A stretch of DNA of 22,289 nt. Source: a virus. Position 1 is the stretch's first letter; each line of letters starts with the position of its first letter. A program made the translations under genes and the position numbers. Below the pieces are notes generated by a model. It searched no databases. It worked only from the letters and a program-made list of their open reading frames with translations, and was not told the origin of the DNA. Shown here in pieces: positions 1,896-20,450 of the stretch. The stretch covers positions 1-22,289 of IMG/VR virus record IMGVR_UViG_3300009187_000082. One strand, given 5' to 3'.

Positions 1896-2032
1896 CTTCC
1901 CTCTTCATAATTCTGTGCTGGATTAAAAAATTTTCTATTTCCACATATAATACAAAAAGTTTCCATATGGCTATGTTCACTAAATATCCTATCAATGAAC
2001 ATTCGCCCTTTGCATCTATTACATAAAAGCAT
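1841..2032 (-). CDS. Small zinc ribbon protein
   Basis: A 63-residue protein with two CxxC pairs, C4-x-x-C7 and C27-x-x-C30, the usual layout of a four-cysteine zinc ribbon. The rest (RKFFNPAQNYEEGRWLLKKEQLRAKA) is aromatic and basic. The start ATG at 2032 shares a TAATG with the lectin-like gene before it; I see no good ribosome binding site, so it probably depends on coupling. The 3' end overlaps the helix-turn-helix gene by 55 bases. Small zinc ribbons of this type in phages often bind nucleic acid or act as transcription accessory proteins; placed next to a helix-turn-helix gene, a regulatory role is a fair guess. Confidence 0.75.
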   Translation of the reverse strand: MLLCNRCKGRMFIDRIFSEHSHMETFCIICGNRKFFNPAQNYEEGRWLLKKEQLRAKATIASL

Positions 2033-2475
2033 TAATTTGGTATGCCAATAACAATTAGGTTAATACCAATACTAGTGTCTCCACCTGTATTAAATTTTAC
2101 TGTTCCGTCTACTCTTGAGGTTGAGATACTCTTTATTGTTACCGTCACATCTTTTCCAGCATCAGTATTTCCAACGTTGATTGGGGTTGCAGTGACGATG
2201 GGTGCAAACTTAAAGTCAGTATTAAAGTTATAAAAGAATGGTTGAGAAGATCCAGCAGTTTGCGTTTGGCTTGTAGTGACCTGGACGTAGCCTCCTATTA
2301 TTCTGGTTTCAGAAGTTTTGGCGCTTTGTTGTCCATTTTGAACAGTATCAACTGTGACATATTTATAGGTCGACGGAGAAACCTGAACTGCAAGATCATT
2401 GAGTTCTTTAACAATTTGATAAATATATGTTACATCTAGAGGTTGTCCACGCTCTGGTAATGGTAATATAGACAT
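2032..2475 (-). CDS. H-type-lectin-like tail tip or fibre protein
   Basis: A 147-residue protein, likely a receptor-binding or fibre-end structural protein. Residues 1-45 contain a helical part (LDVTYIYQIVKELNDLAVQ) that could mediate oligomerisation. Residues 60-147 are a beta sandwich with the pattern of H-type lectin folds: GGYVQVTTSQTQTAG, then FNTDFKFAPIVTATPINVGN, DVTVTIKSIST and a final INLIVIGIP strand. The family binds sugars in other proteins and is often found in tail fibres. The start has no ribosome binding site: TGGTATAAT ends exactly six bases before the ATG, consistent with a leaderless transcript. It is the last structural gene before the regulatory block. The fold call is by eye and moderate. 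Confidence 0.7.
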   Translation of the reverse strand: MSILPLPERGQPLDVTYIYQIVKELNDLAVQVSPSTYKYVTVDTVQNGQQSAKTSETRIIGGYVQVTTSQTQTAGSSQPFFYNFNTDFKFAPIVTATPINVGNTDAGKDVTVTIKSISTSRVDGTVKFNTGGDTSIGINLIVIGIPN

Positions 2476-9076: not shown

Positions 9077-9711
9077 TATACTTCTTCCAGACTTACCGAA
9101 ACATTCCAATAATCAAAATTTGGTCCTCGTTTTTCTACAGAAAATGAAAAATCTGATATAAACATTTCTATAACCTGATTGTATTGTCTTAGGTGGCCAT
9201 ATGGACCTTCTGTTCCCCTAAAAATTCCTTTTCTGTCATATGCAAGAAATACCCAGAATGATCCCTTATGGTCGTTATACCATTCTTGAATATCTGCTCC
9301 TCCTGCTCCTCCGTCAGTAGTATAAGATTTATTTGTAGATATTCCTGTTGCTTGGTCAAAATTGGGAATATTTTCATGAGACCTTGACGGAAGCATGTTC
9401 CAACTAGTGCTAATTTTAATTTTGTCTGCAATATGATAAGACCTCATACGACCATTGATCATTCTTTCTCTTTTTTCAATTCTTTCATCTGAAAAATTTA
9501 ATGGCTCTCTGTTATCATCAGACAAGATTAAGAACTGATCAATTAAAGATTCATCCTCTACTTGTCCTGGATCTGCGCCAATTTCTAAACCATATGGGAT
9601 ATAAAGTCCATCTATTAATGTACCTGAATTTTCAGACCAAAGCATTGCACTAGGTCTTTGATATTTTTTACGACTTTGCATATACGTAAATCTTGGATCA
9701 ATTTCTGGCAT
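9076..9711 (-). CDS. Distal-tail-like minor tail protein
   Basis: A 211-residue protein directly after the tape measure gene, the usual place of the distal tail (Dit-like) protein that links the tail tube to the tip. The N-terminus is polar (MPEIDPRFTYMQSRKKYQRP); the middle (KIKISTSWNMLPSR, WYNDHKGSFWVFLAYD) and the end (YNQVIEMFISDFSFSVEKRG, FDYWNVSVSLEEV) are strand-rich, as in tail ring proteins. The last motif resembles the many tail proteins in which a strand pair ends in a description of the sandwich closing edge. Start ATG at 9711, with AAGGGGG about ten bases upstream, overlaps the end of the tape measure gene by 14 bases. Function by position mainly; fold call is tentative. Confidence 0.7.
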   Translation of the reverse strand: MPEIDPRFTYMQSRKKYQRPSAMLWSENSGTLIDGLYIPYGLEIGADPGQVEDESLIDQFLILSDDNREPLNFSDERIEKRERMINGRMRSYHIADKIKISTSWNMLPSRSHENIPNFDQATGISTNKSYTTDGGAGGADIQEWYNDHKGSFWVFLAYDRKGIFRGTEGPYGHLRQYNQVIEMFISDFSFSVEKRGPNFDYWNVSVSLEEV

Positions 9712-12700
9712 TTGTATTTATCCCCCTTACGCTTCTGTCGTTTACTGTTTTTATTTGTGACATTACTGCTTGTGCAATTTCATTTGGATTAGCGCCTGTT
9801 TTTGCATTAACTGTTAATGTATATGTATTATTATACACTGCCCCGCCAATAGATTCACCGCTATTAATTTTTTTCATGTTGTCTACACCATAAGAATCTA
9901 CAGCATACTTACTCATTATAAATTCTCCTGGGGTTAACATTGCTGGAACTGTATCTGTTCCCTTTGCAAAACCACCAAATGAGAAGTACTTAGGAATAAG
10001 ACCACCCATTGACCAGTTTCCAAATGCATTTGCTGCTGCTGCATTTCCACCAAACTTTTTTAATACTGCAGCATCTTGGGCTTTTTTGGCAGATGCTGCT
10101 GCTGCGGTGGCGTTGGCTGCATCTCTTACGGCTTTTTCTTGTGCAAGCATTCCTGAAGTTGGGGCCATGGCTTTTTGTACAGCAAGATTATTTTGTAACT
10201 TGTATAAATCTGCTAAGTGCATTCCTGGAGTACTTCCAGCATTTTTTGTTACATCTCCAACATTCATTGCCTGATTAAATAGCATGAAATTCTTTGCTGC
10301 ATCGTCTGCAATCCTTTGTAGGTCATCAAAGTGCATCTGAACAACAGATGACTGATCTGTTGGTCTATTTGAACCTGTTTGGTAACCTGTAGGGTCTGTC
10401 TTGGGGTCTGTCTTGGGGTCTGTCTTGGGGTCTACCTTGGGGTCTACCTTTGGGTCTGGTTTAGGGTCTGGAGTTGGGTCTGGTTTAGGGTCTGGAGTTG
10501 GGTCTGGTTTAGGGTCTGGTTTAGGGTCTGGTTTAGGGTCTGGTTTAGGGTCTGGAGTTGGGTCTGGTTTAGGATTTGGTTGTGTAGTTGCAGGTGTGAC
10601 TGCTGCTGCTGGAGTCTGTGCGCCATAGGCATCAATAAGTCTTTTCTGAACATCTAATGCAAGTTTCATAGAATCAACAAATGCTGCGCTCTTAATTAAT
10701 GCAAGGTCTACTTTATTTTTAATTGCTTCCCAAGCATCTTTTGTTAATCCAAGAACTGTGAGTCCTTCTATATCTTTGTCTAATAGTATTTGTCTTAAGC
10801 GAATAAACTCTTGTGCTGGTTCTAGTTTATCTTCTTCAATTTTAAATATTTCATCTTGAAGATCTTTAATTTCTTTTTCAAGTTGTAGTCTAGTTTTCCC
10901 ACCCTGAGTTACTCTAGATAGTTCATATTCTCTAGATTTTTCTATTGCATCTTTTTGTTTTGTTACAGCGTCTGCTGCTTCTTGGGCTCTCATATCTTGT
11001 ACAGCCCTTGCTGCTGCTGCAATATCTCCAGAGGTTAGCGCTTCAGCAAGTGTTAGTTGACCCTTTTGCTGATTGGAAATAGAAGCATTTGCTTTCTCTA
11101 CTTCGTCTAAAGCCTTAATTCTTTCATCATACTTGTCATTAATTTTTTGTTCTTGATCTTCGATTCCCTTTAGTGCTGCCTCTTTATCATCTATTTTATA
11201 CTGAATTGCTGAAATTGCATTCTGTGCATCTTTAATTACTGTATCTTGTGCTTTTGTATCTATTTTAAATTTTATGTTTAGTTCTGTTTCTTGAACATCA
11301 AAAGCCTGCATTGCATTGCCAAATCCTTTATCAAACAGACCTTGCATGAATTCAACGGTAGATTTTAATTGATTTAGTCTTTCATTAAAGTCAGAAATTA
11401 ACGCATTTAATTCTCCTTGTGCAGCACCAATAATTACTGCTGGTGCATCAATTCTCATCAACCTATCTACTTTTGCTTGTGCTAAAGCAACTTGGTTTTC
11501 CATTGATTTTAAGTGTTCATCTGATGAAATTGCAAAAGCGTTTTCTGCGCCATACTTAGATCTTAGTCTTGCTTCTTGCATTGTATCTTTCTTAAATTCT
11601 GCAATGTCTGTTTTTACTCCACTTATTGCTGCTGATTTTTCTTGTGCTGCAGTCAAAGTTTTATATCTCTGAATTAATGTTTTTAATGTCTTGTCGTTAA
11701 CGCCATTGGCAATTGCTGATGCTATTGTCTTATCAGAAATTAACTGATATGCATCTGCTACTGGAACCCCAAGGTTTGCCAACTTATTAAATGCAGAAGA
11801 TTGATTTTCAATAGCCTTAAACTCTGCTTCCATGCTAGAATTCCAGTCACCCATAGTTATAGAGTTTAGTGCTTCTTGAATATTGGTAGCATCTCTCTTT
11901 AAAGCAATAATATTTCCCTTATTGTCAAACTTAAACAAAGAGTTCTTTTTCTCTTCATATACCTTTGGGTCCATTCCGACTATAAGAGAGATAAGATCTT
12001 CGCTTCCGCCCAAACCTCTTATATCGTTTTCTATACCGCTAAATACATCTATGGTCTTCTTACCACCAAAGAGACCTTCTAAGGCCTTACGAGAGGCACT
12101 CCAGCCTTCTGTGACCTTTATCTGGTTCTTGCGTACATCTCGTAGTTTCTTTACTAGGTCGTCTAGCGGTGAAGACTGAACTTTCGTCCCCGTGGTAGTT
12201 GGAGTAGTTCCTGTTGGAGCAACAACACCTACCTGTGTGTTATCTGTAACGGCTTTAAATCCTTGGGCTTCTTTATATTTTTGTATTTTATAAGAAAGAC
12301 TTCCAGTTACTCCTTGTCCACCTCTAGGTCCAGGCTCTTTAAGCCACGCTTGGTAATCTTCGTCTGCCTGAATTATTGGATCTGGAATATTTACAATTGA
12401 TGCAATGGTAGTTGTGTATACTAATTTTTGATCATCTGTCAATGTCTTAAAATATGCTTCATCGAATGCTGCGGTGCCTTTAAGTTGTGGCATTATATTA
12501 TAAACAGCCTCTATTGTTTTTGGCTTTTGTGTTTCGATTGCATCAAGAATTCTATTTAGTTCATCGTATGCTGTTTTATTTTTTGGGTCTATGTAAAATC
12601 CAACTAAGAAATCTGAAGGGATTACCGTATTGAGGTTGTTCAACTTAATCATATTCTTTGCAAAGTCAAGAGCATCTGAATCTTTTTCAAATGCTTCTAC

Positions 12701-15700
12701 CTTGGTTATAAAGTTTGTCTGAACTGTCTTGTTAACGGTGCCCTTTGCATCAAGAATATTCTGTGCTGCAACACCAATTGACTCAGCAGTTGCTCCACTA
12801 AACTTAGTAATAATTTCCATCATCTTTGGAGCAATGTCTTTATTGTCTGTTGCCATTTGCAAAAGAGTTCTAAATACGGCTGGAGGAATATCTCCACTTG
12901 CCATCTTTGCTTGAATTAAAAACTCTTGACCACTATCTATTGCTCCAGATTTTCTTAAATCTTTTGATTGTTGATTTACAACATCTACATAAGCCAACTG
13001 ATTAGGATCATTTTTGTATTTTGCAGTTGTGGCTTTTTTCATTCCAGACATCATTGCTTCTTGAAGTCCACCAGCAGAGTTATACTGTGAAACAACATCT
13101 CCCTGTAAAGTACTTTGAGCAGCAGTCAATCTGTCTCTTTCTTTTATGTACTTAATTTGCAGATCATTGGCCTCATTAATTTTACCCTGCAGTCTTAACT
13201 CTTCAATTTTTTTCTGATAATACATATCAAATGAATCTAGCATTTGCTTATTTTGTTCCATTGCAATTTTTGCGTCTACGGATGCTGCTGCACCAAGAAC
13301 GGCTGCTTCTTTTACATACTTTTGTGATGCAAAATATCCAAGTGCTGAACCTGCTATTGCTCCAATTCCTGCACCAATGGCTGCTCCAATAGGTCCTCCA
13401 ACCATTGTTCCAAACCCTGCTACTGCTGCTGCTCCTCCAAGTGCTGAAGCCCCGATTCCTGCAATTTGTGTTGTTTTTTGTCCAGCAATTTTAGTTATTT
13501 GGTTAGCATTATTAATGTTACCTATGCTACTCTTCATATTTTTTGCATTTTCATTAATCATGTTTATTCTAACATTTAATGGATCATTAATAAGGTTTTC
13601 TCCGTTTGGTCCCAGCAAACTTTCTAGTTGAGCAATAACCCTTATACCAATAGACATATCTCCTGCTTGTCTAGCAGCATTCATAGCCAAACTTTTTGCT
13701 TGTGACATATCAATAGCACCAGACATAATTGCTGAAGATAATTGACCACCTAAATCTTTTACTGCAACGCTTCCTTTACCTGCAGCATTTTGTTCTGAAA
13801 TTCTTGCTGTTAATGCTTTACCCTCTGCTGTTTGAGCAAATGCTTCTCCATAGGTAGTTTTACCAGTTGCTGATCCAAGCATTGCAAAAGAATTTTTTCT
13901 TCTTAGATCCATCTGTTCTGATGCCGTTGTTTTGCCACCAAACTTTGCTATGGCCTGAAGTGCAGAGGTAGATCCTTTAAACTTTTCACCTTCTTCTAAA
14001 ACCTGATCTGCTGCTTTATCAAATGCCATTCTTAAAGCAGCCATTGCTCCTACTGTTGCAACAAGTCCTACTGCAATGGCTGACATAGGACTTTTTAACA
14101 TTGGAAGAATCATAGATAATCCCATAAGTGGCATCATTAGTTTTTGTGAAAGTTCTCCAACTTTTCCTGGAACCATTGATCCAACCATTGCTGCTCCTGC
14201 TGCTACTCCAACACCGCCAGCCAATCCCATCTTTCCAGTCTTTCCTTGTGCTGCTCTTTGTGCTGCTTCTGCTTTTTTGTTTGCAGAATAAGTTTTAAGT
14301 CTGCCAGATAAAGTTTTCTTTTGTGCTTCGGCTGCTGCTCTTTCATCAATAATTGATTGTCTATATGCAACCCTTTGTGCTAACTTACTTCTTTTTTCTT
14401 GTGCTTCTAATTGACGGCGCAAAGATTTTTGTTCAGCATCAATTATTCCCTGGCCGTACAGCGCTGTTCTAGAGGCTGCTGCCTTTGCCTGTGTTTTTGC
14501 ATTGTCTGCTTGTCTCTTTTCCATTTGACGACGTAAAGATTTTGATTCAGCATCAATTGGGCCATTGCCATATAATGCAGTTCTAGAGGCTGCTGCTGCA
14601 GATTGAGATGATGTTGCTTCTGGAGCATATGCATGTCCAGGAAGTATAAGTCTTGTTTTTGGACCTTGAACAACCCTTGTTCCTTTTTTAGGCGTTGGAG
14701 TCATTCTTGTATCTTTTGAACTGCCAGAAGAAGAAACAACGTTTGAAGGTTTAGGAGTTGTATTTAATTTTTTTAATTTTCCAGTCTTTTCATCTTCAAG
14801 CATTTCAGTTGGCTTAACAACAACAGATGAATGCATTTTGTGAAATGCTTTCCAATCAACCTTTCTGCCTTCTTCAAGTCTTTTAATCATTCCATCGTAT
14901 ATTGGTTTTTCTACATCAGAAAGATTCATACTTGCTACTGTGGCTTTTAACTTTGGAAGAACTTTATCAATTTCTGCTTTCATTGCTCTGTCATATTGCT
15001 CTGCAGTCATATTCTTTGGAATATCCAATGTTGATTCAGCAAAGAACCTTTTAGCACCACCCTTTACCCCAAGTAAATTAATTTTTGCTTGCTCTTCCAT
15101 TGAAGGCATGCTTGTAGCATATTCTCTCTTTCCAGATGCACGATTAAAGACTCCTGCTGTTCCAACATCTGCAAGAGTGTTTGCTGAAAGATTTCCTCTT
15201 CCAAGATCTTTGTCACCACGAAGATTTGCTGCGACAAGTTGTCTAAAGTATTGATCTTGTGAAAACTTTCCTGTCATTTTTGCTGGATCAAACCTCGTAT
15301 CATATGCAGACTCTAAAACAATTATCTTTCTTTTACCCTTTGGATCTTTAGGGTCAATCATTGTACTAATCTTTTGATCTGGAGAATCTAATCCGTGAAC
15401 TTCTCTAGCAATCCTTGTTGCTCTTTGTTCTGCAAGAGCAGCCTTTTCGTCCATCATTGGCTTTACAAATACTCTACTGCCATCTGGCTTTTCATATAAT
15501 CCACCAATTCCCTTAACTGGAAAACTAAACCCAGAAGTTGGAGATATCTGGGTGCCAAAGTTTGTAGGCTTTAATCTTCCAGAGGCTGTTTTCTTTGCTT
15601 CTTTTGCAATTTCTTTTAACGTTCTTGTGTCTGCATCATCTACAACTTTTGCAGACTGACTTATTGCTGGGCGTGTTCCTGCTCCAAGTCTATTCATGTT

Positions 15701-18586
15701 TACAACTGATCCATCATTTAACGTAACCGTTGAAGACTTAGTTACAATTTTTCCTTGTCTTCCATTACTTGTTCCTGTGGCAGGACCTTCTATAATACTG
15801 AAGCCCTTAATAAATCCCTTGTCTACAGCATCTTGTAGTATTTTCCTACTTTCTGCTGGAGTATTTCCTAATCCTTTTCCAAGATTAAAACTTGTAGATG
15901 TGTTGTATAATTTTTGCGCTTCTTGATATCCCTTAGTTTCTGCAACTGCTGGATGCTCTAAAGGAATTCTCTTTGTAAATATGTCACGAACATAGTTATC
16001 ATTTACTCCTTTTATTTTACCATCTGCTAAATCTTTTTTAATTGTTTCAATTATTGCACGGTCCATAGCCTGTGCATCTACAGCAGAAAGTCTAGAAGCA
16101 GCCCATTTTCCTGGACCCATTCTTTCCCATTCAGCAATAAATGATGCTGGGTTAACTCCAACAGAACCAGTCATTGCCTTGTTCATTTCTTGTGGGAAAT
16201 TAAACATTAACTTGTGAAGTGTTGAAACTGTTTCTGGTAATCCTTGTGATCTTAAAATTGAAGCCATTGCTTTTAATTTGTTTCTTTGATCTTCCGTCAT
16301 AAATGGATTATCTTTTATAACATCAGAAATTAATTTTTGATCACTTTTTCCACCAACGTGAGTTTTGTTCATTGGAACAGTTGTTGTTGATGATGCCTTG
16401 TCTGCTTGAGCCAAACTTACAGTTCCAGTTTCGTATCCCTTTAGTTTGCCCTGAATAATTGCTTTAATAATTGGTCGGTTTTGTGGATCTTGTGCTTCTT
16501 TTGCAGGAATAATTGCTTCTCCAGGAGAACCAAGAATTGGAATAATATCTCCAGCCCCTGCTGGACCTGGTAATCCAGTTGTCCCTGTTGCATATTTCTT
16601 TAAGCCTTTAACGCCTGGAGCACCACGCATTGGACCAGAAAATCCTGCTTGTGCTGCGATTGCTCTTCTGTATGCATTTGCCAAAATGTTAACTGCTGTT
16701 GCTTCAGATGTAAAAGTTTGCTTTAGTCTTTGATGAACCTGATCAAGTGACGCTGCAACTGCTGCTGCCTCAAGTTGTTCTTTAGTTAAATAGTTTGTCT
16801 GTTCTCCCAATATTTGACTTGATTGACCAGTTCTGTTATAGATAGATTTTAATCCTGCAAACATTTTAATTATATTAGCAACAGCATTTGCAATCAAACC
16901 AAATCCCATTAAGAGAACTGGGCCAACGCCAGCAAGTGCCACTGTTAGAATGGTTAAGAACTTTTTGCTACCTTCTCCCAGGTTATTAAACTTATCAAGA
17001 ATTTTTCCAACAAACTCAACAATTGGTGTTAGTGCTTTTAAGAATTGTTCTCCTACTGGAGCAATAGCCAATTTTAAATCTTCCATTGATTTTTTAAACT
17101 TGTAGGTTGTTGTGTTTTGTATCTTATCTAATTCTCGTTGTGATAAAATTGCAAGTTCTTCTGTAGTTGCTTTTGTTAGACCTAACACTCTTTGAGCCTG
17201 TGTACCCTGGGCTGTTACGTTCTGGAATAGCGTAGATAGTCTTGAGAACTGGAACTTGCCAAACAGTTGTTCAATAGCACGAGCACGGTTAAGAGGATCA
17301 AGTGTATCAAGTGCCTGAGCAAAGCCAACTACTGTTGCTTTGATATCACCTTTATTTGCTTCAACAATTCCTTTTATGTTGACTCCAAGGTCTCCAAGGA
17401 ATGCGCTTGCTTTTGCAGATGGATTAATCAAAGATGCAAGACCAGATTTGAGTGCGTTAGCACCTTCTGATGCGTTAATACCACCTTCCTTCATTGCTGT
17501 AAGGAAGAATGCAAGATCTTCTACATCTCCACCAAGTTGCTGAACAACTGGGCCAGCCTTTGGAATTGCTACTGTTAAATCTTCAATAGAAACAACAGTC
17601 TGGTTTTCAACTGCGTTAAGGAAGTCAATCTTTTTAGCAAGATCTGATGCTGCCACTCCAAATGCATTGGTTACTGAAATTGTTGTCTCTAATGCCTGTG
17701 TTTGTTCTACTCCACCAAGTACCGCAAGCCTTGTTGCCTGCACAACTTGGGCTGTCAACTCCGCACCCATCTTACCCATTGCTGCTGCATCTGCTGCCAT
17801 CTTCATTGTGTCTTCTACTGCAACACCATACTTGGTATACTCTTTTGCAAGAATCTGAATCTGCTTAACCATTGCATCGGTTTCTTCTTGTGTTGTAAAC
17901 ATCTCTCCGTATACACGTTTGAATCTAATTGCCTGCTCTTCAAGTTTCATGAATGTTTTTGAAGCAGTAACACCGAGCATTGCAAGTGGAACTGTAAATC
18001 CTACCATCAACTGACGGCCAGCCCACTGAGTATTCTTACCAAAATTTAAAAGGTTGGTTGATCCTTGCTTTAGTAATTGATTAAGCAGTTGCTGTCTTTG
18101 TGCTGCTATGGCTGTCTGCGTACCCAGGTTTTTCATATCAAGCGTTAAAGGTCTTACCGCAATTGCTTGTAAAGCACCATTTGCACCACGGCCCATTTTT
18201 ATATACTGAGTCTGTATGTCTTTTACACGCTCTCGTGCAACTTTATTTAATGTCTCAAACTCAGACTTAAATAACCTACCAAAAGTTTTTGTTGCAGCAC
18301 CAGTATATCTAAAATATTCTCTTGAGGTTAATTTATTTTTTTCTAAAGCATTAGTAAAAGACTCTGTACTTGATGTTACTGTTCGCATCGATGCTTGGAA
18401 TTGTCCAGCAGCATTGATGCTGTTCATTAAATTTTGTGCTTGATTTGCTGCTACTGCTGCTGCTGCAGTACCAGACTTTGACATCTGTGTATGGAAGGCT
18501 GATACTTGACGTTGGAGAAGTTTTAAACTTGCTAAAGCATCAGACGTATCAATATTTACATGAATATTGGATTCTACATCAGCCAT
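9698..18586 (-). CDS. Tail tape measure protein (2962 residues) with inserted domains
   Basis: This protein sets tail length and is expelled during DNA injection. Residues 185-480 match the TP901-type core: QLMVGFTVPLAMLGVTASKT, then EYTKYGVAVEDTMKMAADAA and GINASEGANALKSGLASL. Hydrophobic segments lie at about 542-578, 1449-1522 and 1702-1752, the last a glycine/alanine zipper (GAAIGAGIGAIAGSALG). An SPGE motif is at 687-690, an unassigned region at 739-1000, a kinase-like domain at about 1005-1255, 38-residue repeats at 1331-1392, a coiled coil at about 2433-2596 including LAEALTSGDIAAAARA, a DPKP repeat at 2668-2732, and the C-terminal TPGE motif at 2885-2888. The ATG at 18586 is chosen because AGAGG lies nine bases upstream; the ATG at 18590 leads to a stop after three codons. 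At roughly 1.5 angstroms per residue the tail could approach 400 nm if fully extended. Confidence 0.95.
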   Translation of the reverse strand: MADVESNIHVNIDTSDALASLKLLQRQVSAFHTQMSKSGTAAAAVAANQAQNLMNSINAAGQFQASMRTVTSSTESFTNALEKNKLTSREYFRYTGAATKTFGRLFKSEFETLNKVARERVKDIQTQYIKMGRGANGALQAIAVRPLTLDMKNLGTQTAIAAQRQQLLNQLLKQGSTNLLNFGKNTQWAGRQLMVGFTVPLAMLGVTASKTFMKLEEQAIRFKRVYGEMFTTQEETDAMVKQIQILAKEYTKYGVAVEDTMKMAADAAAMGKMGAELTAQVVQATRLAVLGGVEQTQALETTISVTNAFGVAASDLAKKIDFLNAVENQTVVSIEDLTVAIPKAGPVVQQLGGDVEDLAFFLTAMKEGGINASEGANALKSGLASLINPSAKASAFLGDLGVNIKGIVEANKGDIKATVVGFAQALDTLDPLNRARAIEQLFGKFQFSRLSTLFQNVTAQGTQAQRVLGLTKATTEELAILSQRELDKIQNTTTYKFKKSMEDLKLAIAPVGEQFLKALTPIVEFVGKILDKFNNLGEGSKKFLTILTVALAGVGPVLLMGFGLIANAVANIIKMFAGLKSIYNRTGQSSQILGEQTNYLTKEQLEAAAVAASLDQVHQRLKQTFTSEATAVNILANAYRRAIAAQAGFSGPMRGAPGVKGLKKYATGTTGLPGPAGAGDIIPILGSPGEAIIPAKEAQDPQNRPIIKAIIQGKLKGYETGTVSLAQADKASSTTTVPMNKTHVGGKSDQKLISDVIKDNPFMTEDQRNKLKAMASILRSQGLPETVSTLHKLMFNFPQEMNKAMTGSVGVNPASFIAEWERMGPGKWAASRLSAVDAQAMDRAIIETIKKDLADGKIKGVNDNYVRDIFTKRIPLEHPAVAETKGYQEAQKLYNTSTSFNLGKGLGNTPAESRKILQDAVDKGFIKGFSIIEGPATGTSNGRQGKIVTKSSTVTLNDGSVVNMNRLGAGTRPAISQSAKVVDDADTRTLKEIAKEAKKTASGRLKPTNFGTQISPTSGFSFPVKGIGGLYEKPDGSRVFVKPMMDEKAALAEQRATRIAREVHGLDSPDQKISTMIDPKDPKGKRKIIVLESAYDTRFDPAKMTGKFSQDQYFRQLVAANLRGDKDLGRGNLSANTLADVGTAGVFNRASGKREYATSMPSMEEQAKINLLGVKGGAKRFFAESTLDIPKNMTAEQYDRAMKAEIDKVLPKLKATVASMNLSDVEKPIYDGMIKRLEEGRKVDWKAFHKMHSSVVVKPTEMLEDEKTGKLKKLNTTPKPSNVVSSSGSSKDTRMTPTPKKGTRVVQGPKTRLILPGHAYAPEATSSQSAAAASRTALYGNGPIDAESKSLRRQMEKRQADNAKTQAKAAASRTALYGQGIIDAEQKSLRRQLEAQEKRSKLAQRVAYRQSIIDERAAAEAQKKTLSGRLKTYSANKKAEAAQRAAQGKTGKMGLAGGVGVAAGAAMVGSMVPGKVGELSQKLMMPLMGLSMILPMLKSPMSAIAVGLVATVGAMAALRMAFDKAADQVLEEGEKFKGSTSALQAIAKFGGKTTASEQMDLRRKNSFAMLGSATGKTTYGEAFAQTAEGKALTARISEQNAAGKGSVAVKDLGGQLSSAIMSGAIDMSQAKSLAMNAARQAGDMSIGIRVIAQLESLLGPNGENLINDPLNVRINMINENAKNMKSSIGNINNANQITKIAGQKTTQIAGIGASALGGAAAVAGFGTMVGGPIGAAIGAGIGAIAGSALGYFASQKYVKEAAVLGAAASVDAKIAMEQNKQMLDSFDMYYQKKIEELRLQGKINEANDLQIKYIKERDRLTAAQSTLQGDVVSQYNSAGGLQEAMMSGMKKATTAKYKNDPNQLAYVDVVNQQSKDLRKSGAIDSGQEFLIQAKMASGDIPPAVFRTLLQMATDNKDIAPKMMEIITKFSGATAESIGVAAQNILDAKGTVNKTVQTNFITKVEAFEKDSDALDFAKNMIKLNNLNTVIPSDFLVGFYIDPKNKTAYDELNRILDAIETQKPKTIEAVYNIMPQLKGTAAFDEAYFKTLTDDQKLVYTTTIASIVNIPDPIIQADEDYQAWLKEPGPRGGQGVTGSLSYKIQKYKEAQGFKAVTDNTQVGVVAPTGTTPTTTGTKVQSSPLDDLVKKLRDVRKNQIKVTEGWSASRKALEGLFGGKKTIDVFSGIENDIRGLGGSEDLISLIVGMDPKVYEEKKNSLFKFDNKGNIIALKRDATNIQEALNSITMGDWNSSMEAEFKAIENQSSAFNKLANLGVPVADAYQLISDKTIASAIANGVNDKTLKTLIQRYKTLTAAQEKSAAISGVKTDIAEFKKDTMQEARLRSKYGAENAFAISSDEHLKSMENQVALAQAKVDRLMRIDAPAVIIGAAQGELNALISDFNERLNQLKSTVEFMQGLFDKGFGNAMQAFDVQETELNIKFKIDTKAQDTVIKDAQNAISAIQYKIDDKEAALKGIEDQEQKINDKYDERIKALDEVEKANASISNQQKGQLTLAEALTSGDIAAAARAVQDMRAQEAADAVTKQKDAIEKSREYELSRVTQGGKTRLQLEKEIKDLQDEIFKIEEDKLEPAQEFIRLRQILLDKDIEGLTVLGLTKDAWEAIKNKVDLALIKSAAFVDSMKLALDVQKRLIDAYGAQTPAAAVTPATTQPNPKPDPTPDPKPDPKPDPKPDPKPDPTPDPKPDPTPDPKPDPKVDPKVDPKTDPKTDPKTDPTGYQTGSNRPTDQSSVVQMHFDDLQRIADDAAKNFMLFNQAMNVGDVTKNAGSTPGMHLADLYKLQNNLAVQKAMAPTSGMLAQEKAVRDAANATAAAASAKKAQDAAVLKKFGGNAAAANAFGNWSMGGLIPKYFSFGGFAKGTDTVPAMLTPGEFIMSKYAVDSYGVDNMKKINSGESIGGAVYNNTYTLTVNAKTGANPNEIAQAVMSQIKTVNDRSVRGINTNARN
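10391..10582 (-). repeat. 12-base tandem repeat coding for a DPKP hinge in the tape measure protein
   Basis: About sixteen copies of a 12-base unit (minus strand GACCCTAAACCA and close variants) encode Asp-Pro-Lys/Thr/Val-Pro repeats ending in DPKTDP units. Variants fall in blocks: KP, TP, then KV and KT at the end, which suggests stepwise duplication. The unit is a multiple of three, so copy number can change without breaking the frame. The product is a stiff, extended linker between the coiled coil and the C-terminal domain. Confidence 0.9.
14413..14596 (-). repeat. 70-base direct repeat with a 114-base period in the tape measure gene
   Basis: Two similar 70-base copies (14527-14596 and 14413-14482) encode AAASRTALYGxGxIDAExKSLRRQ at residues 1331-1354 and 1369-1392. 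A third, decayed copy may follow (AQRVAYRQSIIDERAAAEAQKK). The segments are basic, helix-forming and lie just before a hydrophobic stretch. Confidence 0.8.
14820..15574 (-). other. Kinase-like domain inside the tape measure protein
   Basis: Residues about 1005-1255 follow the order of motifs in protein-kinase-like and PI3/4-kinase- or HipA-like folds. A glycine-rich turn (KGIGGLYEKPDGS, from 1025) is followed by VFVK with K1042 in the place of the ATP-binding lysine, then E1053 in a helix (AALAEQRATRIARE) as the partner acid. A hinge-like strand IIVLESAY is at 1088-1095. The catalytic-loop-like GDKDLGRGN has D1125, D1127 and N1132, and ADVGTAGVF places D1140 where a metal-binding DFG-type acid is expected. 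The order and spacing are persuasive, but this is a by-eye assignment; activity is not shown. Confidence 0.55.
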
Positions 18587-18604
18587 CCATTAACACCTCT
18601 TTAT

Positions 18605-18928
18605 TTAATTATTTACAAGATTGCCTAGAAGTGAAGCGTCGGAAAGTTTGATTCCTGATGCTTCTTCAACAATTTTGTATACAGTTGGAAGATCTAGGTT
18701 TTCTTCTAGGGCTTCCTTGTCTTCTGCCAATTCTGGCTTGTATTGCTTCATTGCGATTTGGACACAGTCCATTAGCAAGTCCATAGATTTTTCGTTATCT
18801 TCTGCGACCTTTGCAATATCTTCAAACTTCTTCATAAACGGACGAAGTAGAGAAATCTTAAGTGGTCTGACTTTTACCTTGGTGCCATCAATCAGTGTTA
18901 CTGTCTTTTCTTCAGTGGCGATTGCCAT
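18605..18928 (-). CDS. Short tail assembly chaperone (G-only paralogue)
   Basis: A 107-residue protein in the place of the tail assembly chaperone, directly before the tape measure gene. It is clearly related to the first 93 residues of the next gene upstream: both have PLKI-x-x-LR-x-F-x-x-x-FE-x-I, a central helix (MDLLMDCVQIAMKQY against AVLAKCALVAMQQY) and a closing LDLPT-x-Y-x-I-x-x-x-A-x-GIK. It lacks the T-like part. Chaperones of this kind coat the tape measure protein while the tube grows and do not end up in the virion. The ATG at 18928 has a very strong ribosome binding site, AAGGAGG five bases upstream, and an extended -10 promoter lies at 18955-18963, suggesting high output. Confidence 0.85.
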   Translation of the reverse strand: MAIATEEKTVTLIDGTKVKVRPLKISLLRPFMKKFEDIAKVAEDNEKSMDLLMDCVQIAMKQYKPELAEDKEALEENLDLPTVYKIVEEASGIKLSDASLLGNLVNN

Positions 18929-18954
18929 TTATTCCTCCTTATAAGGTTTAGTAA

Positions 18955-18963
18955 AGTATACCA
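18955..18963 (-). promoter_or_regulatory. Extended -10 promoter before the short chaperone gene
   Basis: The minus strand reads TGG-TATACT, the same ten bases (TGGTATACTT) as at 19671-19680 and 1410-1419. It lies in the 56-base gap between the two chaperone genes. A start near 18948 gives a leader of about 20 bases holding AAGGAGG. A -35 match is not seen. Confidence 0.55.
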
Positions 18964-18984
18964 TAAATCAGGCTTATTTTTTTG

Positions 18985-19665
18985 TTATTCGTAAACCTCA
19001 TAATCAAGGCCCATACCAATACCAAAACCTACTCTTTCTGCATTCATTCCTTGTAAAGCCAAAATATCATTGCCATCTCCTGTTGAGCCTTTACTAAATA
19101 CTCTAGCCTTCATATCTTCCCATTCATTACCGCTACCCGAATTCTTATCTAGATCTACACCCTGCATAGCAGCAGCAAATTTTTTATCGCTATAGTCTAA
19201 CTCTCTTTTTATTTTTAGTGTCGCTGTTAATTCTTGCATAGACATTGATGATTCTAACTGGTCATAGTCTTTCCATATACCGATTAAAAAAACTTCTGAC
19301 TCTAGTTTTGCTAAATCTAAAGTATCCCACGAAGATCCGCTATCAACTGCCTGATCTTTAACAGTGTCTTCTGATTTTGCATTAATTTTAATTCCTGCTG
19401 CTACATCAATTATTTCATAGATTGTTGGTAAGTCTAGGCTATCTTCTAGGTCTTCTATTGTTTTTATTGATGGACAATACTGTTGCATTGCAACAAGTGC
19501 ACATTTAGCCAGAACTGCAATTGATTCGTCATCAGTTTTTGCTTCTTTTATTGTTTCAAAAGTTTCTAAAAATTCCCTTAAATATTTAATTTTTAATGGC
19601 GCAGCAATAACTACTCTGTCGTCTACTAATGATATTTTTTTAGTGTCGTATATTTTTGTTGCCAT
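18985..19665 (-). CDS. Long tail assembly chaperone, G-like and T-like parts fused in frame
   Basis: A 226-residue protein. Residues 10-93 are the G-like part shared with the short paralogue. Residues 112-226 match the T-like extension seen in GT proteins: LAKLESEVFLIGIWKDYDQL, then SMQELTATLKIKRELDYSDKKFAAAMQGVDLD. In most long-tailed phages G and GT are made from overlapping frames by ribosomal frameshifting; here one frame encodes both. The T part recruits the tail tube protein while G binds the tape measure protein. I chose the ATG at 19665; an in-frame TTG at 19716 would begin inside the terminator stem. No ribosome binding site precedes the ATG, but TGG-TATACT lies six bases upstream, so a leaderless transcript is likely. 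The C-terminus (GFGIGMGLDYEVYE) is glycine-rich. Confidence 0.85.
   Translation of the reverse strand: MATKIYDTKKISLVDDRVVIAAPLKIKYLREFLETFETIKEAKTDDESIAVLAKCALVAMQQYCPSIKTIEDLEDSLDLPTIYEIIDVAAGIKINAKSEDTVKDQAVDSGSSWDTLDLAKLESEVFLIGIWKDYDQLESSMSMQELTATLKIKRELDYSDKKFAAAMQGVDLDKNSGSGNEWEDMKARVFSKGSTGDGNDILALQGMNAERVGFGIGMGLDYEVYE
19285..19291 (-). other. In-frame slippery heptamer T TTT TTA
   Basis: Within codons 125-127 (GTT TTT TTA) the reading frame presents T TTT TTA, a classical -1 slippery site. A -1 shift here would add seven residues (NRYMERL) and stop at TGA, giving a G-only product of about 134 residues. I see no obvious stimulatory hairpin or upstream booster, and T-runs are common in AT-rich DNA, so use of the site is uncertain. 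Confidence 0.3.
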
Positions 19666-19671
19666 TATACA

Positions 19672-19680
19672 AGTATACCA
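19672..19680 (-). promoter_or_regulatory. Extended -10 promoter giving a leaderless transcript of the long chaperone
   Basis: The minus strand reads TGG-TATACT, then TGTATA, then the ATG at 19665. The six-base gap equals that at the lectin-like gene and would place the transcription start on the start codon. It lies directly downstream of the terminator hairpin, so the chaperone is likely transcribed anew after termination. No -35 box is visible; the expected position falls in the terminator stem. Confidence 0.6.
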
Positions 19681-19712
19681 AACAGAAAGACCCAACCCAC
19701 TAAAGGGTTGGG
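19680..19712 (-). terminator. Rho-independent-type terminator after the major tail protein gene
   Basis: A perfect 8-base-pair stem, CCCAACCC (19705-19712 read on the minus strand) and GGGTTGGG (19691-19698), with the 6-base loop TTTAGT, is followed on the minus strand by the T-rich TCTTTCTGTTT. It begins 22 bases after the tail protein stop codon. It should hold back readthrough from the abundant tail protein transcript. The T tract is interrupted, so termination is probably partial. Confidence 0.8.
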
Positions 19713-19734
19713 CCAACTGTATTATTAAGTTGTA

Positions 19735-20391
19735 TTATGCTAGTGAGCGGTCTACGATTTTACCATATGATGCATCATCGTTTGGAAGAAGGCGGAATGA
19801 TACTTCAAACATTGAAGCCTCATCACGCTTTGCTGATACTGAAACATTCTCAATTGAGAGTGCACGGTATGCAACATAAATTCTTTCCTTTGGATCTAGA
19901 GAAGAACCAGAACCTGGTCCTACTGCGACAAGTCCACGCTCTAGTGGAACGTCACCAATATCTCCTGCAGACATAGTGAGTGTTTGAAGACCCGATGCTT
20001 CTGCTGGAAGATCTGTATTCTTTCCTGCAATTGCTACTAGAAGATTTTCTAGTGTTGCCTCTGCGAAAGATGTATTTAGATTAACTGTCATACCCTGCTT
20101 GAATAAACGAGCAACGTCGAGAAGTTGATCTACTGCTACATCACCAAAGTCTGGCTGGAATGCGAGTTCCAAACCATTTGATGTGTATCCTATATTTGTG
20201 TAATCTTCATCAAGTGACAAAGTGTCCTTATAGGAAGTTGCGGATGCTGTGAGTACTGGAAGATCTGTTGCTGCTTTAGCATTAGTAACTTTTCCAGTTG
20301 CTTCTACATATCCGATTGGGCCTGCATCATGCGTAAATAGTGCTGCTGCACCTACGATAATGTTACTACTTGAACCACGGCTGTATGCCAT
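19735..20391 (-). CDS. Major tail (tube) protein
   Basis: A 218-residue protein in the tube protein position, after the tail terminator and before the chaperones. It begins MAYSRGSSSNIIVGAAALFTH and has a strand-rich tube-like body (NIGYTSNGLELAFQPDFGDV, RIYVAYRALSIENVSVSAKRD, MFEVSFRLLPND). Hundreds of copies stack as rings around the tape measure protein. I chose the ATG at 20391 because AGAGGTG (20398-20404) lies six bases upstream; the in-frame ATG at 20409 would put this site inside the coding region. The gene has its own promoter (20442-20450) and a terminator just after it, and its base composition is less AT-rich than its neighbours, all as expected for the most abundant tail protein. 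Confidence 0.88.
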   Translation of the reverse strand: MAYSRGSSSNIIVGAAALFTHDAGPIGYVEATGKVTNAKAATDLPVLTASATSYKDTLSLDEDYTNIGYTSNGLELAFQPDFGDVAVDQLLDVARLFKQGMTVNLNTSFAEATLENLLVAIAGKNTDLPAEASGLQTLTMSAGDIGDVPLERGLVAVGPGSGSSLDPKERIYVAYRALSIENVSVSAKRDEASMFEVSFRLLPNDDASYGKIVDRSLA

Positions 20392-20441: not shown

Positions 20442-20450
20442 ATTATAACA
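20442..20450 (-). promoter_or_regulatory. Extended -10 promoter of the major tail protein gene
   Basis: The minus strand reads TGT-TATAAT, an exact extended -10 (TGnTATAAT), in the 66-base gap between the tail-terminator-like gene and the tube gene. A start near 20435 gives a leader of about 44 bases that includes AGAGGTG. At the 17-base spacing the -35 region reads CATAAA, a poor match. Confidence 0.6.

Follow-up and report, generated by a model that had tools for sequence, protein, structure and literature searches.

Organization of the locus

The window, by which we mean the whole stretch of 22,289 nt analyzed here (IMG/VR virus record IMGVR_UViG_3300009187_000082), encodes two proteins between the major tail protein (MTP) and the tape measure protein. 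Both open reading frames described in an earlier note on this DNA are found at the coordinates it had given, and both lie on the minus strand: 19665-18985 for the longer gene (LONG) and 18928-18605 for the shorter one (SHORT). The order of transcription on this strand is MTP, LONG, SHORT, tape measure, and the features are as follows.

19735..20391, minus strand: gene of the MTP (the tail tube), directly upstream of LONG
20442..20450, minus strand: extended -10 box TGTTATAAT before the MTP gene
19689..19714, minus strand: intrinsic-terminator hairpin in the gap between MTP and LONG (terminator-like at the same place in 26/29 cluster representatives)
19672..19680, minus strand: extended -10 box TGGTATACT of LONG, which stops 6 nt short of the ATG and is predicted to act as a leaderless promoter
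18985..19665, minus strand: LONG, in-frame GT-type tail assembly chaperone of 226 aa, as judged from the open reading frame, PHROG and profile matches
19381..19665, minus strand: G-like part of LONG (residues 1-95), by similarity to SHORT and profiles
18988..19335, minus strand: T-like part of LONG (residues 111-226), by PHROG 10474 and profiles
18955..18963, minus strand: extended -10 box TGGTATACT of SHORT, ending 26 nt before the ATG
18934..18940, minus strand: Shine-Dalgarno sequence AAGGAGG of SHORT, five bases before the ATG
18605..18928, minus strand: SHORT, G-type tail assembly chaperone of 107 aa, as judged from the open reading frame, PHROG match, G tree and fold search
9698..18586, minus strand: tape measure protein gene (2962 aa), by length and position; order as in phages Circinus and Moab

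The motifs that the earlier note had listed as shared (PLKI, LR-F, FE-I, LDLPT-Y-I and GIK) are indeed present in both proteins. LONG reads on into its T-like part in one frame, a single open reading frame spanning both parts, and the description of the starts also holds: AAGGAGG precedes SHORT, whereas LONG has no Shine-Dalgarno sequence. Within the tape measure gene we observed a 12-bp tandem repeat of 16 copies (window 10390-10581) that encodes a PDPK/PDPT run; on the other strand this region has GS-rich and VWFR-like open frames. No tRNA was found in the window, and a DNA-level search with window 18400-20000 against 50,697 phage records found no similarity.

Identity of the two proteins

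BLASTP aligns residues 9-95 of LONG with residues 8-96 of SHORT, with 38/89 identical positions (43%). At an E value of 8e-21 this similarity is far beyond chance, which bears out the proposal that the two chaperone genes are paralogs. Both proteins match PHROG 10504 (E 3e-20 for LONG, 1e-20 for SHORT) and the C-terminal half of LONG matches PHROG 10474 (E 1e-14). These two PHROGs are unnamed, and no named chaperone family in Pfam or PHROGs matches LONG or SHORT convincingly: SHORT weakly matches PHROGs named tail assembly chaperone (E 0.06 and 0.12), the Pfam matches of the two proteins are sub-threshold, and among 38 G-type members three PHROGs of that name match one member each (E 0.0015 to 0.0099). 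The MTP matches PHROG 2175 (E 3e-32), weakly PHROGs 885 and 117 (major tail protein), and Pfam Phage_TTP_17 (E 5e-4) in a match that falls short of that family's cut-off.

In tblastn searches against the same 50,697 phage records, LONG matches 127 Streptomyces and 5 Rhodococcus phages (E values down to 4e-33) and SHORT matches 127 Streptomyces phages, at one place per record (down to 7e-15). Many of the matched Streptomyces phage genes are annotated as tail assembly chaperones, and two Rhodococcus phages have the matched T part within a joined chaperone annotation. LONG and SHORT are homologous to annotated tail assembly chaperones, their genes lie between those of the MTP and the tape measure, and they represent a short G form and a longer form that shares the G part. 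Given these annotations and the shared gene order, LONG is, by homology, the GT form and SHORT the G form of one tail assembly chaperone, encoded by two genes.

In the model of LONG (pLDDT 66) the first 90 residues form two strands and four main helices, ordered as in the model of SHORT (pLDDT 77). When the SHORT model was compared with 350,542 PDB chains using Foldseek, the HK97 chaperone 2ob9 came first, though weakly (E 0.23, probability 0.66); the Z score of 4.2 over 86 residues is under 5 and tied with unrelated chains. The LONG model gave no match to solved structures at E 0.001 (Z at most 4.5, to unrelated chains), and a profile search of PDB sequences returned nothing credible.

Relatives with and without a frameshift

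In most long-tailed phages a ribosomal slip allows a single gene to give two chaperone forms, and the G/GT frameshift is among the most widely conserved phage recoding events. To place the window among its relatives we collected at least 334 loci from IMG/VR scans, one bacterial-genome scan and two Streptomyces loci; G and T profiles were then run against these and three window pieces, at least 337 loci in all. As the scans took the best 80 loci each, rarer arrangements may be missed. Usable loci, with G and T on the plus strand, numbered 323 of 337. Left out were nine loci with the fused GT at a contig end (including L307; in eight of them the contig stops within 160 nt past the stop, too short for SHORT), L148 (G only, cut), L001 and L337 (no match), and L002 and L003 (window pieces).

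Among the 323 usable loci listed, 274 have the fused gene followed by the short one (GT-G) and 49 have the frameshift arrangement (G-T). Merging of duplicates leaves 170 distinct cores among these loci, 144 GT-G and 26 G-T, in 31 and 24 clusters, respectively; since the clusters are interrelated, the k-of-n figures given here are not counts of independent trials. An arrangement intermediate between the two types was not found among the loci listed. The fused gene precedes SHORT in all 31 GT-G clusters, the gap between them is short (median 55 nt, range 26-69, in 143 loci) and a large open frame starts within 120 nt after SHORT in 28/30 clusters. The bacterial-genome scan contributed two loci, L336 (frameshift type) and L337 (which the profiles did not confirm). 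L336 is a contig of a metagenome-assembled genome labelled as a cyanobacterium; its chaperone locus is of the frameshift type and belongs to this phage family, and the contig probably comes from a phage and was wrongly binned.

In all 24 G-T representatives T lies in the -1 frame relative to G, and in 23 of them (all but L292) an in-frame X XXY YYZ heptamer is present inside the G/T overlap of 37-91 nt, where simple arithmetic would predict one in about 16 overlaps by chance. The heptamers are CCCAAAC/T, GGGAAAC or AAATTTA. Circinus and Moab likewise have C CCA AAT near the end of the G gene, with the T part open in the -1 frame. The two-gene loci differ: G and T share one frame in LONG and a heptamer occurs in only 2/31 of the SHORT tails, so that the earlier claim of two genes standing in place of the frameshift is supported. 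A relic slippery site in LONG was sought at the G-T junction as well, and no heptamer there is conserved across clusters.

LONG does contain scattered heptamers, of which T TTT TT(A/G) near residue 126-129 recurs in 9/30 clusters, L004 (the window's own type) included. These might indicate that recoding within LONG itself also gives rise to a short G-like protein, with SHORT as a supplement. We regard this as very improbable, given that the heptamer near residue 126 encodes a conserved V-F-L, the off-frame tails vary (7 to 26 codons) and the product would include part of T.

Promoters and translation starts

Start signals of LONG were scored in clusters with 45 nt of upstream sequence (L310 is without LONG's start and the upstream of L290 is too short; that of the frameshift-type L267 is too short for both the start-signal and the hexamer analyses). 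A TGN-TANNNT box ending 4-10 nt before the start is present in 29/29 clusters, against 57/4000 random ATGs, 3/140 other open reading frames, 0/31 for SHORT and 0/23 for frameshifting G. Over all distinct 45-mers the counts are 63/64 for LONG and 0/81 for SHORT; if up to 12 nt and shorter upstreams are allowed, the box is found in 30/30 clusters, most commonly at 6 nt (17/30). In none of the 29 clusters does LONG have a Shine-Dalgarno match of 5 or more, whereas one of 4 or more precedes SHORT in 31/31 and frameshifting G in 23/23. The box of SHORT lies 23-35 nt upstream of its start, with TGN in 29/31 clusters. LONG therefore has, in all 29 clusters, the sequence hallmarks of a leaderless gene (a -10 box close to the start and no Shine-Dalgarno sequence), and its mRNA is predicted to be leaderless. 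A passage of PMC3160421 defines such genes (TANNNT type) by a -10 box located some 10-12 nt upstream of the start codon.

The promoters also differ in sequence. The hexamer TATAAT is used by SHORT in 28/31 clusters, against 3/30 for LONG; as the window has TATACT in both promoters, it is the other clusters that carry the argument from promoter strength. Terminator-like hairpins are found upstream of LONG in 26/29 clusters, of SHORT in 0/31 and of frameshifting G in 17/23. Given this conserved contrast, and given that the start signals of frameshifting G are like those of SHORT, SHORT is, as far as its start region can tell, the gene that keeps the ancestral-type promoter, leader and Shine-Dalgarno sequence, and the start region of LONG would be new. 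A difference was seen in the start codons: frameshifting G begins with TTG in 16/24 representatives despite its Shine-Dalgarno sequence, and all 31 SHORT use ATG.

It might be argued that LONG is translated without a Shine-Dalgarno sequence from read-through of the highly expressed MTP message, its -10 box being incidental or serving SHORT. The absence of a Shine-Dalgarno sequence would suit this explanation, as AT-rich start regions can initiate without one. It nevertheless seems improbable to us, since the hairpin lies between the two genes in most clusters, the extended -10 box keeps leaderless spacing in every cluster scored, and SHORT has a -10 box of its own. Moreover, lacking a Shine-Dalgarno sequence, LONG should gain little GT from read-through of the tail-tube gene.

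A general promoter scan of the window stayed at chance level (15 sites against 13.8 expected) and no clear -35 element accompanies the extended -10 boxes; the extended -10 analysis was used instead. Several further boxes were observed. A second gene with a near box lies at window 2032-2475 (minus strand), with TGGTATAAT at 2490-2482, 6 nt before the ATG; it may be leaderless too, in which case LONG is not the sole such gene in the phage. Other extended -10 boxes stand before genes on the minus strand (TGGTATACT at 1419-1411 and TGGTACAAT at 4299-4291), and the phage group may use late promoters that consist of a -10 element only. At L284:2245 and L324:2137, roughly 1.4 kb upstream of LONG, another gene is preceded by TAGAAT with TGN at a distance of 6 nt from the ATG. 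Finally, TATAAT overlaps the ATG of LONG in 7/30 clusters, the window's included, and could start transcripts that are without the start of LONG.

WhiB genes are typical of actinobacteria and their phages. Ten related records were searched, and a WhiB gene was found in four of 115-119 kb and in none of the six shorter ones; among 14 control genomes only Corynebacterium was matched. The WhiB gene in related records suggests that the host is probably actinobacterial. Leaderless genes are described as common in actinobacteria in a section of PMC3160421.

Codon usage and selection

A codon score was trained on tail-tube versus tape measure genes and applied to the 25 of 30 clusters in which both neighbors are present. 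Mean scores decrease from the tail tube (0.20) via SHORT (0.01) and the tape measure (-0.26) to LONG (-0.44); SHORT scores above LONG, and LONG below the tape measure, in 25/25 clusters. The window itself shows the same tendency, the share of AAG among lysine codons being 0.69 for SHORT, 0.62 for the tail tube and 0.10 for LONG. In frameshifting phages (16 low-GC of 22) the score of G exceeds that of T in 14/16.

Taken together, promoter, initiation and codon signals would each favor an abundant G and a scarce GT. The earlier note had proposed that the ratio is set by separate signals, and the differences on which this would depend are conserved and in the expected direction.

Median dN/dS in five clusters is 0.06-0.09 for LONG and 0.03-0.15 for SHORT, values at which both genes are evidently under purifying selection. 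The notion that one of the two is a non-functional remnant could draw on L147, where LONG lacks most of T through an apparent in-frame internal deletion that keeps both ends (L147:4483-4941), which may be a true variant or an artifact of assembly. With both frames kept in at least 144 distinct loci and dN/dS well under 1, we give it hardly any credence.

Origin of the two genes

The origin by duplication suggested in the earlier note was examined with a tree of the G parts (97 columns, 86 rows), and it gains support. The LONG_G sequences fall together in a single clade (94/94) whose stem is long (0.71). SHORT_G clusters with G from L268, L276 and L332 (87/73), the nearest frameshifting phages among the loci listed. 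LONG_G, SHORT_G and these three are jointly set apart from the remaining 21 frameshifting G (100/99); a single clade of SHORT and LONG is not rejected (p 0.474). The three loci are not cleanly outside the GT-G group, as their T and tail-tube sequences adjoin it or fall within it: the tail-tube tree unites them with the GT-G phages (100/100), placing them among these, and in the T tree the T of L332 lies inside LONG_T on a long branch. Accordingly, neither tree placed the duplication before or after the split of L268, L276 and L332, which may be outgroups, cases of loss or reversions. L332 combines a frameshift arrangement and a T within LONG_T with a G that groups with SHORT, possibly through a return to the frameshift or through recombination.

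One old duplication is the simplest reading of these trees. On their evidence SHORT is the copy that resembles frameshifting G and LONG is the diverged copy. That GT comes before G, as noted earlier, is correct in the sense that LONG is transcribed first; the description as a reversal is less apt, as the order would follow from a tandem duplication of a promoter-G-T unit and reciprocal loss in the two copies.

The long stem of LONG_G and the divergence of the G parts could also mean that a new function arose: LONG alone would do the GT job with its own stoichiometry irrelevant, and SHORT would be a dedicated tape-measure chaperone, or the reverse. The very long tape measure (2962 aa) would fit such a role. 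We consider this unlikely, because SHORT groups with frameshifting G, keeps their promoter, leader and Shine-Dalgarno sequence and so looks like an unchanged G, and because the strong signals accompany the copy taken as G and the weak ones that taken as GT, as expected.

Proposed mechanism

Overall, we favor the explanation that LONG and SHORT are a split GT/G pair which arose by tandem duplication and whose ratio is set by their own start signals, and from the sequences we would give it a probability of about 0.78. A promoter-G-T unit would have been duplicated in tandem; the first copy would have been fused in frame with loss of slippery site and leader, giving LONG, and the second would have lost T, giving SHORT. 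SHORT would then be made abundantly from its own promoter, leader and strong Shine-Dalgarno sequence. LONG would be sparse, with a weaker extended -10 promoter and an mRNA that begins at the start codon or a few nt from it, and the upstream terminator and absent Shine-Dalgarno sequence would keep read-through of the MTP message from raising GT. As in lambda, the tape measure would be coated through the G part, while subunits of the tail tube would be recruited through the T part.

More tentatively, the ratio once given by slippage might now be set by contrasting initiation, a leaderless GT beside a Shine-Dalgarno-led G, a proposal that we find rather doubtful. If true, host physiology could influence the G:GT ratio, and thereby tail assembly, in a manner not open to a frameshift ratio, since messages with and without a leader differ in how they compete for ribosomes and initiation factors.

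A large frameshift-free group with frameshifting close relatives would show how two genes take over a product pair made by frameshifting, and what needs rebuilding (promoter, initiation, codons) for unequal products. It also offers a test of whether selection holds the ratio itself or the frameshift. For annotators, there is no slippery site to seek in GT-G loci.

Comparison with known systems

The literature passages found on tail assembly chaperones together with leaderless genes or duplication do not describe a GT-then-G arrangement in actinophages. For cluster O mycobacteriophages a passage of PMC4351075 reports promoters whose mRNAs are predicted to be leaderless, and it does not locate them at the chaperone genes. 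The HK97 chaperone 2ob9, the top-ranked fold match of the SHORT model, is aligned over near full length, with a weak score and 12% identity.

The Stanwilliamsviridae phages of Streptomyces (Circinus, Moab) resemble the window in their homologous G and T and in the order MTP, chaperone, tape measure, but encode G in a single gene that carries CCCAAAT, T following in the -1 frame. Lambda, too, encodes a short G (gpG) and a G-T form (gpGT) just before the tape measure; there the two arise by a -1 frameshift at about 30:1, whereas the window has two genes. According to the part of PMC5009743 concerned, lambda G binds the tape measure, T binds the tail tube and the G:GT ratio matters. A parallel in gene arrangement comes from another phage group: as related in a passage of PMC10885494 (citing Vladimirov et al. 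2022), some T4-like phages have a short gene alongside a fused long one instead of a frameshift, a pair of separate genes of the kind that SHORT and LONG form here. The two-gene solution itself therefore has a precedent in T4-like phages.
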